Shown: positions 17,275-34,294 of the stretch, piece by piece
Layout of the letters: each line of letters starts with the position of its first letter
How positions within the stretch are numbered: position 1 is the stretch's first letter
Assembly (NCBI GenBank): GCA_944326585.1
Contig: CALVEN010000001.1
Location: 372,001 to 436,000 of the forward strand
Length of the DNA stretch: 64,000 bases
DNA from: Candidatus Gastranaerophilales bacterium
GTDB lineage: Bacteria; Cyanobacteriota; Vampirovibrionia; Gastranaerophilales; Gastranaerophilaceae
Direction of reading: 5' to 3'
The notes under the pieces: generated by a model
Told to the model about the DNA's origin: nothing
Databases searched by the model: none
The model's input: only the letters and a program-made list of their open reading frames with translations
Position numbers and translations under genes: made by a program

Positions 17275-17483
17275 TATACTTATGTCATTCCGAACAGGAC
17301 ACTACTCTGTCATCCTGAACTGCCATAGCCACTACAAGATAATGCCATTCTGAGCGTTAGCGAAGAATCTCTTGTTTAATGAGATCCTTCGGCTATGCCT
17401 CAGGATGACAATATACTAACGGCATCCCGCATTTATTGCTGGATCTTTTTTAAATAAGATGCTGAAACTTGTTCATCATGACC
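17275..17483 (+). repeat. Block of dispersed palindromic repeats (CAGGATGAC/GTCATCCTGA type)
   Basis: Non-coding stretch built of short inverted units: GTCATTCCGAA, GTCATCCTGAA, GAGATCCTTCGGC...CTCAGGATGAC and GATGCTGAAAC. The same units occur at 20832-21285, at 32852-32905 and at 34110-34170. They resemble REP-like elements dispersed in many bacterial genomes, which often create spurious short ORFs. Confidence 0.75.
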
Positions 17484-17559
17484 GGAGGTTAAGCTAACTG
17501 CCCCACTACCATGAGTGAAAAGTAGTTATTATGCGTATTTGCGCCCATTTTTAACCTCC
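17484..17559 (-). repeat. Micro-ORF cassette, copy 1 (76 bp, 9-bp terminal inverted repeats)
   Basis: Bounded by GGAGGTTAA and TTAACCTCC. Closely related to copies at 21286-21360 and 34171-34244 in the same orientation. Here the C/G homopolymer of the other copies is replaced by a mixed sequence with four consecutive C bases (plus strand). On the minus strand the left terminus provides a Shine-Dalgarno and the right terminus is complementary to it. Confidence 0.85.
17489..17548 (-). CDS. 19-residue micropeptide of repeat cassette copy 1
   Basis: GGAGG six bases before the ATG, then codons for MGANTHNNYFSLMVVGQLA and a TAA. The first twelve residues are identical to copy 2. The stop codon lies inside the 3' arm of the stem that can pair with the SD. 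Translation is an inference from the SD, conserved frame and upstream promoter; no homologue is known to me. Confidence 0.4.
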   Translation of the reverse strand: MGANTHNNYFSLMVVGQLA

Positions 17560-17581: not shown

Positions 17582-17610
17582 ATATTATATTCTTTTTCCG
17601 GTTTTGTCAA
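17582..17610 (-). promoter_or_regulatory. Promoter reading into micro-ORF cassette copy 1
   Basis: On the minus strand TTGACA (17605-17610) and TAATAT (17582-17587) are 17 bases apart; an overlapping TATAAT gives a 15-base spacer. The promoter lies across the last codons of the ABC ATPase gene and points into the cassette. Confidence 0.5.
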
Positions 17611-20831: not shown

Positions 20832-21285
20832 CTTGCGGTATGACAACCTGTTGTCATCTTGCACTGAGTCAGAACAACACCTTTGTCTATCTTTAAACGT
20901 CATACCGCACTGCCTGAGGCAGGACAATACACTTAACATTGGTCAAGTTTTACACGTCATCCCGCATTTTACAAAGCGAACCAAAATTTTTGTCATTCTG
21001 AACTTGTTTCAGCATCTCATCAACTTTTTGAGATCCTTCGGCTATCGCCTCAGGATGACCTGTAAAATTACACAGAGACCCCGAATGTTGTCGTGCCTCA
21101 GGCACCTCAGGATGACATGATACTTCCGTCATCCCGGACTTGTTCCGGGATCTTATTTTATCTATTAGATCCCGCAATAAATGCGGGATGACGTTTATAG
21201 TTTGTAGATTTATTTTTTCACAAAGATTTTTGTTTTTTTGAGATGCTGAAACCAGTTTAGCATGACAAGTAAAATTATTATCTGC
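20832..21285 (+). repeat. Block of dispersed palindromic repeats
   Basis: About 450 bases without a gene. Repeated units GTCATCCCGCATTT, GTCATTCTGAACTTG, GAGATCCTTCGGC, CTCAGGATGAC and GATCCCGCAATAAATGCGGGAT occur in both orientations. Short ORFs here read as peptides of the HPEAIAEGSQ type, which are artefacts of this repeat class. The stretch ends in TTGAGATGCTGAAACCAG, the sequence that also precedes cassette copies 1 and 3. Confidence 0.8.
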
Positions 21286-21360
21286 GGAGGTTAAGCTACT
21301 GCCCCCCCCCCCCTGAGTGAAAAGTAGTTATTATGCGTATTTGCGCCCATTTTAACCTCC
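21286..21360 (-). repeat. Micro-ORF cassette, copy 2 (75 bp, C12/G12 tract)
   Basis: Perfect 9-bp terminal inverted repeat GGAGGTTAA/TTAACCTCC. The plus strand has a run of 12 C bases (21302-21313). Nearly identical to copy 3 apart from tract length and a few substitutions. On the minus strand the stem would join the SD to the sequence covering the stop codon. Confidence 0.88.
21291..21350 (-). CDS. 19-residue micropeptide of repeat cassette copy 2
   Basis: GGAGG five bases before ATG; codes for MGANTHNNYFSLRGGGAVA and then TAA. The G12 tract supplies Arg-Gly-Gly-Gly and sets the frame of the last residues; one base more or less would change the C-terminus. Near-consensus promoter 31-59 bases upstream of the start. 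Function unknown; it could be a regulatory leader peptide or a carried-along feature of the repeat. Confidence 0.45.
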   Translation of the reverse strand: MGANTHNNYFSLRGGGAVA

Positions 21361-21380
21361 AATTAATCTGTTACTGTCTT

Positions 21381-21409
21381 ATTATAACAGATATCATGCA
21401 CAAGGGCAA
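21381..21409 (-). promoter_or_regulatory. Promoter for micro-ORF cassette copy 2
   Basis: On the minus strand TTGCCC (21404-21409), 17-base spacer and TATAAT (21381-21386). It would give a leader of about 25 bases before the micro-ORF. Confidence 0.6.
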
Positions 21410-26600: not shown

Positions 26601-27671
26601 TTAAGAACCTTGAATTTGTCTTTTTAATTCTTCGGGTCTTGAAGAACGGGAAAGTGCGTCTTCAAGCGTAATTAATTTATTTTTATACAATTTTGCAAGT
26701 GACATTTCAAGAGTTTCCATACCGGCACCCTGGCTTGTTTGGATTGTCGAATAAATTTGTGCGGCTTTGGCTTCTCTGATAAGGTTTGCGATTGCAGGGG
26801 TTACAATCATAATTTCCTGAGCCATTACGCGGCCTTTTTTAGTGCCGTCGGGTTGTAATTTTTGCAAAAGTGTTTGTGAAAATACAGCTACAAGAGAGTT
26901 TGCAAGCTGTACACGAATTTGCTGCTGTTGACCTTCGGGAAATACGTCGATGATACGGTCAATAGTTTGAGATGCGGATGACGTATGGAGTGTTCCGAAA
27001 ACCAAGTGGCCTGTTTCAGCTGCAGTTAGCGCAAGAGCTATTGTTTCGTGGTCCCTCATCTCACCTACCAGAATGATATCAGGGTCTTCACGAAGTGCCG
27101 CTCTTAAAGCATTTGCAAATGATCTTGTGTCAGCTCCGAGTTCTCTCTGGTGGATAATACTTTTTTTGGATGTGTGAACAAATTCGACAGGGTCTTCAAT
27201 TGTCAAAATATGTTCCGCACGGGTTCTGTTAATATAGTCAACCATTGCGGCAAGTGTTGTTGATTTACCCGAACCTGTAGGCCCTGTTACAAGAACAAGT
27301 CCGCGCGGTCGTTCGGCAGTTTTTTTAACGATATCAGGCAGCCCCAGATCTTCAAGTTTTGGCGCCTGAGAACTGATTGTTCTGAATGCGGCGGCGTAGC
27401 AGCCTTTATCTTTGTAGAAGTTTACCCTGAAACGACCAACGTTATCTATACCGTAGGAAAAGTCTAATTCCCAGTCCTGCTCAAGGCGGCGTCTTTGCTC
27501 GTTTGAAAGCATCGGAAATAATAAAGATTCAACATCTTCAGGAGTTAATGGTTTTGATTCGTATCTTACGAGTTGTCCGTCTATACGTGCTACAGGCGGC
27601 AGGGCGTTTGAAATATGAAGGTCACTTCCGCCGTCTTTTACTAATCTTTCCAATAATTCTTCAATAATCAT
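26601..27671 (-). CDS. pilT: Type IV pilus retraction ATPase PilT
   Basis: Hexameric ATPase that depolymerises type IV pili. Motifs: N-terminal GGSDLHIS, Walker A GPTGSGKSTT near residue 131, Asp box region TIEDPVEF, Walker B ILVGEMRDHETI near 200, His box HLVFGTLHTSSA near 222, and the C-terminal PilT-type QEIM...AIANLIRE segment. Length 356. The ATG at 27671 has AAGGTG about 6 bases upstream; a GTG three codons earlier overlaps that SD. It follows the 83-residue gene by 10 bases. Other pilus machinery genes are not in the window apart from the prepilin near 33.5 kb. Confidence 0.95.
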   Translation of the reverse strand: MIIEELLERLVKDGGSDLHISNALPPVARIDGQLVRYESKPLTPEDVESLLFPMLSNEQRRRLEQDWELDFSYGIDNVGRFRVNFYKDKGCYAAAFRTISSQAPKLEDLGLPDIVKKTAERPRGLVLVTGPTGSGKSTTLAAMVDYINRTRAEHILTIEDPVEFVHTSKKSIIHQRELGADTRSFANALRAALREDPDIILVGEMRDHETIALALTAAETGHLVFGTLHTSSASQTIDRIIDVFPEGQQQQIRVQLANSLVAVFSQTLLQKLQPDGTKKGRVMAQEIMIVTPAIANLIREAKAAQIYSTIQTSQGAGMETLEMSLAKLYKNKLITLEDALSRSSRPEELKRQIQGS

Positions 27672-27681
27672 ACTCTTCACC

Positions 27682-33319: not shown

Positions 33320-34070
33320 CTAATCCTTGTACCAGTAATCTGCATTATTCCAGCGTCTTATCCATTCTCCGCAAGCGCTGCCGTTCATATTGGAATTTGA
33401 TGTCCAATTTTTTGTACAATATTGTCTTATTTCACTATCATTAAAGTTATAACCCAAGGGTAAAATTCCTTTCGGTGTAATCACAAAATTAAAGTGATCT
33501 AACCCCATTCTGTTAAATTTATTTGTAGTGATGAATGCATAAATAGTTCCACAATTATTTGTCATATTATGCGGTGTTCCTTCACTGTCCGTATATACAT
33601 AAGCACAATTTTTATTTACTGATGTATACAGTAAAACAATACCGTTATTAAATTTTTCTTTTACATATAAATCTAAATTCCCGATAGTGCCATAACGTGA
33701 TTCGCCTGTTAATGCCACTACATCAACATTATCAGGGAAACAGCCTTTTGTATGATGGCATTTTTCGGAAATTCTCATGTATTTAGACAGAATATTAGCC
33801 ATACTTTCAGGGGTATTCAAATCCCATGTTTCGGGTACACCGTTTTCTGCAACAGCCATAGTAAATGCATTAGCCAGAGTTGAATAAACCCATTTAAATC
33901 TTGTGACGGTAACTTTTTCCTGATATTTTGCGACAAGCGTAGGAATAGTCATTGCCGCCACAATACCTATTATGGCAAGGGCTATCAAAACTTCCGCCAG
34001 AGTAAACGCGGCTTTTTTTGAAGTTAATAAGGGAATAAGTAAATAAGTGTTTACTGTGAGTTTCGCTCAC
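33320..34070 (-). CDS. Type IV prepilin-like protein, start region frameshifted or non-canonical
   Basis: The mature part is a pilin/pseudopilin: KKAAFTLAEVLIALAIIG at the prepilin peptidase site, a hydrophobic helix (VAAMTIPTLV), then a globular head with Cys pairs and a late GILPLGYNF segment. In the pilin frame the first start codon is a TTG at 33988, inside the signature, and the frame upstream is closed by TGA after about 20 codons with no ATG, GTG or TTG. A GTG at 34070 with GGGAGGGAAG upstream opens a frame for VSETHSKHLFTYSLINFKK that runs into seven A bases (34013-34019). Dropping one A would join it to KKAAFTLAEV. Micro-ORF cassette copy 3 and its promoter lie just upstream. Confidence 0.6.
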
Positions 34071-34170
34071 TAATTCTTCCCTCCCGCCCTTGAGGGGGAG
34101 GGTTAGGGTGGGGGAATTTTTTTGAGATGCTGAAACCGGTTCAGCAAGACAGATAAAAAAGTTATCCGCG

Positions 34171-34244
34171 GAGGTTAAGCTACTGCCCCCCCCCCCCTGA
34201 GTGAAAAGTAGTTATAGTGCCTATTTGCGCCCATTTTAACCTCC
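34171..34244 (-). repeat. Micro-ORF cassette, copy 3 (74 bp, C11/G11 tract)
   Basis: Same 9-bp terminal inverted repeats as copies 1 and 2; the plus strand has a run of 11 C bases (34187-34197). Located between the prepilin gene and its probable promoter, with the micro-ORF in the prepilin direction. Confidence 0.88.
34181..34234 (-). CDS. 17-residue micropeptide of repeat cassette copy 3
   Basis: GGAGG five bases before ATG; codes for MGANRHYNYFSLRGGGQ and ends at TAG. With eleven G bases instead of twelve the frame leaves the tract differently from copy 2 and stops two codons earlier. Substitutions at three residues keep the frame open. Would be the first ORF on a transcript that continues to the prepilin. 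Confidence 0.42.
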
Positions 34245-34265: not shown

Positions 34266-34294
34266 ATTATAGCAAATCGTCTTAATTATGTCCA
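34266..34294 (-). promoter_or_regulatory. Promoter for cassette copy 3 and probably the prepilin
   Basis: On the minus strand TGGACA (34289-34294), a 17-base spacer and TATAAT (34266-34271); one mismatch from the sigma-70 consensus. No terminator is evident between it and the prepilin gene, apart from repeat hairpins. Confidence 0.65.

Follow-up and report, generated by a model that had tools for sequence, protein, structure and literature searches.

The short dispersed cassette present in three copies in the 64,000-nucleotide stretch of Candidatus Gastranaerophilales DNA analysed here (the window) is, with a probability of about 0.88, the 5' end of a type IV prepilin-like gene, where it serves as a phase-variation switch acting on translation. 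Its parts are a promoter, a Shine-Dalgarno (SD) sequence, a start codon, a genus-typical N-terminal word, and a poly-G tract, and slipped-strand changes in the length of this tract would decide whether the ATG shares a frame with the long leader that runs to the cleavage site G/A↓FTLAE. In phase (e.g., with A+G10 or G13 before CAGTAGC), the leader would be translated and then cleaved away by prepilin peptidase. In the other phases, translation would soon run into TAG or TAA and yield only a peptide of about 16 to 20 amino acids. Because the leader would be cleaved off, it could tolerate inserted repeats as long as the frame is kept. Across the family Gastranaerophilaceae, the pattern is best explained by a large pilin repertoire under slipped-strand phase variation.

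The window copies all have 9-bp ends of the form GGAGGTTAA...TTAACCTCC (Table 1), an arrangement that occurred in 0 of 100 dinucleotide shuffles. The initial annotation had listed all three, although the start of the third is at 34170, one base before the position given there. On the minus strand each consists of an SD and an ATG opening MGANTHNNYFSL / MGANRHYNYFSL, and the far arm covers an in-frame stop, just as had been described. The ORF reads ATG GGC GCA AAT ACG CAT AAT AAC TAC TTT TCA CTC into the G run, and the copies with G12 continue as GCA GTA GCT TAA, with OFF-frame ORFs that encode MGANTHNNYFSLRGGGAVA and a stop in copy 2 (21291-21350) and MGANRHYNYFSLRGGGAVA and a stop in copy 3 (34175-34234). 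In copy 1 the tract has degenerated, and TGGTAGTGGGG stands in place of poly-G. Putative promoters precede all three; the 17-base spacing previously claimed for every copy holds for copies 2 and 3 but is 15 in copy 1.

Table 1. Cassette copies and the associated prepilin-like gene in the window (promoter elements are putative)
Feature	Position	Strand	Details
Cassette copy 1, orphan	17484..17559	-	SD, ATG at 17548, OFF-frame ORF 17489-17548
Copy 1 -10 box TATAAT	17584..17589	-	TTGACA 15 nt further upstream; from sequence
Cassette copy 2, orphan	21286..21360	-	SD GGAGG 21356-21360, ATG at 21350
Copy 2 poly-G tract G12 (C12 on + strand)	21302..21313	-	
Copy 2 promoter TTGCCC - 17 - TATAAT	21381..21409	-	from sequence
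Cassette copy 3, upstream of prepilin gene	34170..34244	-	ATG at 34234
Copy 3 poly-G tract G12	34186..34197	-	
Copy 3 promoter TGGACA - 17 - TATAAT	34266..34294	-	from sequence
Leader, cassette to prepilin cleavage site, with dispersed repeats	34007..34169	-	
Type IV prepilin-like body FTLAEVLIALAIIGIVAAMTIPTLV...	33320..34006	-	frame open upstream to 34066

A collection of 99 cassettes from the window's genus and other genera, found with a pattern that itself requires the SD, the ATG, and the G run, gave a broader view of these elements. An exact TATAAT lies within 50 nt upstream in 71 of the 99, against a shuffle expectation of 13, mostly 19 to 21 nt before the SD. The N-terminal word has a pN/pS of 0.59 in frame versus 0.81 and 1.09 when the frame is shifted, in agreement with the synonymous bias that the initial annotation had proposed to look for; residues N4, H6, and Y9 are near-fixed and their third bases vary. 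Frame-breaking indels before the G-tract, named there as an observation that would overturn the idea, were not seen. The proposal of a translated, promoter-bearing, dispersed cassette is thus borne out, with the cassette now placed as a 5' element.

What the initial annotation did not contain was the prepilin gene downstream of copy 3 and the dependence of the reading frame on G-tract length. The ORF at 33320-34066 matches PF07963 (N_methyl, E 7e-7) and scores above the cut-off of TIGR02532. Where the tract of a relative has a different length, the cassette ORF extends into a prepilin of 220 to 340 amino acids. At loci L011, L012, and L013 it reads GGC AGT AGC TTA ACC TCC with no stop, then runs from -SLTS- through dispersed repeats to KKAAFTLAEVLITLGIIGIVAAMTIPTLI, a type IV prepilin motif, and at L010 and L014 the motif comes almost directly after TTAACCTCC. 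One natural ON ORF reads MGANTHYNYIPVRGGGADSEF...MKKLGFTLAEVLITL.... The motif behind the cassettes, K-K-A-A↓FTLAEVLITL..., with its cleavage site G/A↓FTLAE, is an N-terminal methylation and cleavage motif with E5 and a small residue at −1 (A in 45, G in 20). Two motif hits, FSMTEIL in L001 and L008, proved false under a stricter motif. The window's own genome encodes a prepilin peptidase (PF01478), and the ON products would be processed by PilD and assembled into pili. A PilT-like T2SSE ATPase, a component of the type IV pilus machinery, is encoded in the window at 26601-27680 on the minus strand.

The frame relation between the tract and the pilin carries the main reading. Among the 72 cassettes with a prepilin motif in the sequence examined, 66 have an unbroken frame from the G-tract to the FTLAEV motif, over a leader of 0 to 147 codons (mean 55). 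Among the 59 leads of at least 20 codons, the two alternative frames are free of stops in 1 and 0 cases, but these leads had been preselected as open in the pilin frame, and 66/72 is therefore the fair figure. A non-coding mobile repeat, REP- or MITE-like with only an incidental ORF, is refuted by this continuity and is to us extremely improbable; its dispersed copies, inverted ends, orphans at 17484 and 21286, and other nearby repeats have to be set against a positioned promoter and SD, a pN/pS that is lower in frame, and a word free of frame-breaking indels before the tract. Dispersed palindromic repeats occur in the window at 21000-21280 and 17300-17480 (GATGCTGAAAC..GTTCAGCAT and ATCCCGGAACAAGTCCGGGAT), and such repeats are read in frame within the pilin leaders of ON copies.

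In the 66 genes the ATG is in phase with the pilin in 11 (ON) and out of phase in 55 (OFF; 36 and 19), which puts ON below a one-third share (p about 0.004, with copies that share a tract length not being independent). All 45 OFF bodies that were followed to their natural stop are full length, like the ON bodies. In the OFF frames a stop follows within 4 codons past the tract in 31/59 and 47/59 cases, versus 31% in the remaining leaders. The ORF that had been taken for a micropeptide is an OFF truncation of a prepilin leader: the position of its stop shifts with the phase of the tract, ON copies read through, and in relatives it reaches the prepilin, which led us to reject a micropeptide gene.

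An exception to intact downstream ORFs is copy 3 in the window. Its promoter is common to L011, and compared with the intact copy L001 its leader is short of one 8-bp TTATTAAC unit, because of which the frame is broken in every tract phase. The A7 tract was rejected as the source of this break, since L001 also has A7. Copies 1 and 2 have no prepilin within 1.5 kb downstream, and their prepilin genes were likely lost between flanking repeats. With two copies lacking a prepilin and the third broken, no window copy functions as a switch at present.

Tract length ranges from G6 to G13 across copies. With each species represented by a single assembly, the orthologue comparisons below run between species and revealed no switching inside any strain; the G9-G13 lengths in assemblies could each be wrong by one base. 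The clearest pair consists of L095 (G12, ON) and L101 (G11, OFF), from two species, whose pilins are 95% identical; in the compared stretches the promoter and word are the same, the 45 bases after the tract are identical, and one base in the SD region differs. L005 (OFF) and L012 (ON) have a common promoter and pilins 91% identical, and L051, L107, and L110 carry G11, G9, and G10 before pilins 98-99% identical. The homopolymer lies in the 5' part of the ORF, and its length and frame differ between copies and near-identical orthologues, as at contingency loci. Slipped-strand mispairing would be the cause of these differences, and switching would be reversible within a strain.

G9-G13 runs are prone to polymerase slippage, and slippage during transcription could give a constant mixture of frames in which the tract sets the level of expression and does not turn it on or off. 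The intactness of the OFF genes would agree with this, but the enrichment of early stops in the OFF frames right behind the tract and the differences in tract length between close orthologues make it quite unlikely. We also considered that the cassette mainly switches leader length, giving a long or a short prepilin by way of an internal SD-ATG start. Candidate in-frame internal starts with an SD-like sequence between tract and motif are present in 20 of the 66 genes, e.g., GGAGAT-CAA-ATG-AAA-AAA-TTA-GG↓FTL in L051, L095, L107, and L110. In about ten of these, a clear GGAG and ATG stand 5-13 codons before FTL, and the cassette there may therefore change the length of the leader and not switch the gene off. 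As a general explanation this is unlikely, the other 46 genes having no SD-preceded in-frame start before the motif and including the bulk of the SLTS class, of which the window copies are members.

The initial annotation had instead seen a self-sequestering stem, in which a 9-bp SD/anti-SD pairing would control translation and the micropeptide itself would matter as a self-regulated leader peptide or attenuator. The complementarity is perfect in the three window copies, the predicted fold pairs the arms (z −1.2 to −3.1), and an early stop follows the tract in the OFF frames. Across copies with the CCTCC arm, however, the match is perfect in only 17/50, the 3' arm TTAACCTCC is kept in 26/32 with a changed 5' arm, and 20 further related cassettes have no such arm. 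One possible compensatory change was found, and covariation of the paired arms, as expected of an SD-sequestering leader RNA, was not. The ON frame translates the arm as SLTS and on into the pilin. We therefore regard the self-regulated leader peptide as very improbable and abandon the stem. The arm may instead be kept without pairing because TTAACC encodes L-T in the ON frame and also provides the TAA of one OFF frame.

Within the class, the SD-ATG-polyG cassette is nearly confined to one family. The window's own genome (1.70 Mb, 16 contigs) contains nine or ten copies of the cassette, and under relaxed search criteria about 95 matches turned up in 9 of 16 genomes of the genus. When one genome per GTDB species was scanned for the cassette 3' end, with the window's own genome possibly omitted, the only matches were in Candidatus Gastranaerophilales and a MAG matching the congener G152. 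Cassettes of the form SD-ATG-20..50 nt-G9 occur in 95/288 family genomes and 16/41 genera, with reversed controls near zero, and class-wide, SD-ATG-polyG cassettes are carried by 40/52 family genomes versus 1/94 others. The ten genomes counted have from 7 (own genome) to 86 distinct cassettes. Most genomes have a few N-words of their own (MGANTH..YFS, MAKNADYITSLS, MKNLFTRA, MRNKEFKN), which suggests spread or homogenisation of the 5' cassette.

Most of the loci checked in other genera lead to prepilins too. At L036, L037, and L038, a poly-G cassette leads to a non-pilin ORF of about 500 amino acids with a signal-peptide-like start, and at L028 to an acyltransferase-like ORF; these are possible further phase-variable surface genes. 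Genome G168 has a second cassette family of the MRNKEFKN type (L183 and others), nearly all with exactly G9, and L183, the one copy of this type checked there, showed no prepilin motif in an open frame.

The 335-amino-acid pilins vary in sequence at their C-terminal end. One pilin, L157, was modelled (mean pLDDT 81): the model shows a long N-terminal helix (3-53), predicted at low confidence, and a C-terminal domain predicted with confidence (residues 183-333), whose best structural neighbours are C-type-lectin-like with Z up to 8.6 (VIA). Outside this domain, pilin matches are weak (Z 3.0-3.5) and the N-terminus has low pLDDT, and Foldseek alone gave no significant structural match to the model. 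In the congener G038, four phase-variable pilins correspond to a template beside a reverse transcriptase (RT): compared with template L177, pilins L128, L052, L072, and L127 have 17-20 mismatches at template A and 2-5 elsewhere. These pilins thus combine an adenine-biased variable region with a nearby RT, as do targets of diversity-generating retroelements (DGRs). Three DGRs were recorded, L177 (G038 C19), L170 (G038 C8), and L179 (G178 C118), with templates that match the C-termini of G038 pilins L052, L063, L072, L127, and L128 with adenine-biased mismatches; a bAvd-like protein is encoded beside another such RT in G178. A DGR RT and template were not found in the window's own genome, where the only RT found is that of a type II-A retron (L165, C10:15872-16474) with a nucleoside-deoxyribosyltransferase-like partner. 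Tentatively, at a little under even odds, pilin diversification in Gastranaerophilaceae has two layers: tens of pilin-lectin genes would lie behind spreading poly-G cassettes with a species-wide N-word, slippage would choose which pilins are shown, and a retroelement would hypermutate their tips.

A handful of pathogens provide the best-known cases of phase variation. In this common and largely uncultured gut family, from the non-photosynthetic sister lineage of cyanobacteria, it would be a principal feature, with switches aimed almost wholly at pilins, up to 86 in a 2.3 Mb genome. In the literature searched, which takes in a minority of subscription journals, no paper was found to link phase variation to Melainabacteria, Gastranaerophil*, or Vampirovibrion*. 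The switch also suggests a source of the short "hypothetical" ORFs and start-less pilin genes that these genomes may hold, because OFF-phase assemblies would be mis-annotated, and it makes testable predictions for existing gut metagenome reads.

Several known systems resemble parts of this one. Leader-peptide attenuators likewise have a short ORF and a strong SD after a promoter, but here the ORF extends into the controlled protein when in frame, and the stem is not conserved. Antigenic variation of pilE in Neisseria also diversifies a surface pilin, through gene conversion from silent copies, whereas here many complete genes would be switched by poly-G frame changes. As in DGR targets, the variable regions of the G038 pilins differ mainly at template adenines with an RT adjacent, and the model of a related pilin has a predicted C-type-lectin-like C-terminal domain; here the target also lies behind a phase-variable start. 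The closest parallels are the poly-G/poly-C contingency loci of Neisseria, Campylobacter, and Helicobacter (e.g., pilC, capsule, and glycan genes), with which the cassettes have in common a 5' homopolymer, a switch between full-length and truncated frames, many loci, and surface targets. Unlike those loci, the cassettes belong to a different phylum, in non-photosynthetic cyanobacteria of the gut; prepilins make up nearly all of the targets checked; one genome can carry up to 86 cassettes; the switch lies in a leader whose removal by cleavage is expected; and paralogues have in common a dispersed cassette of promoter, SD, and N-word.
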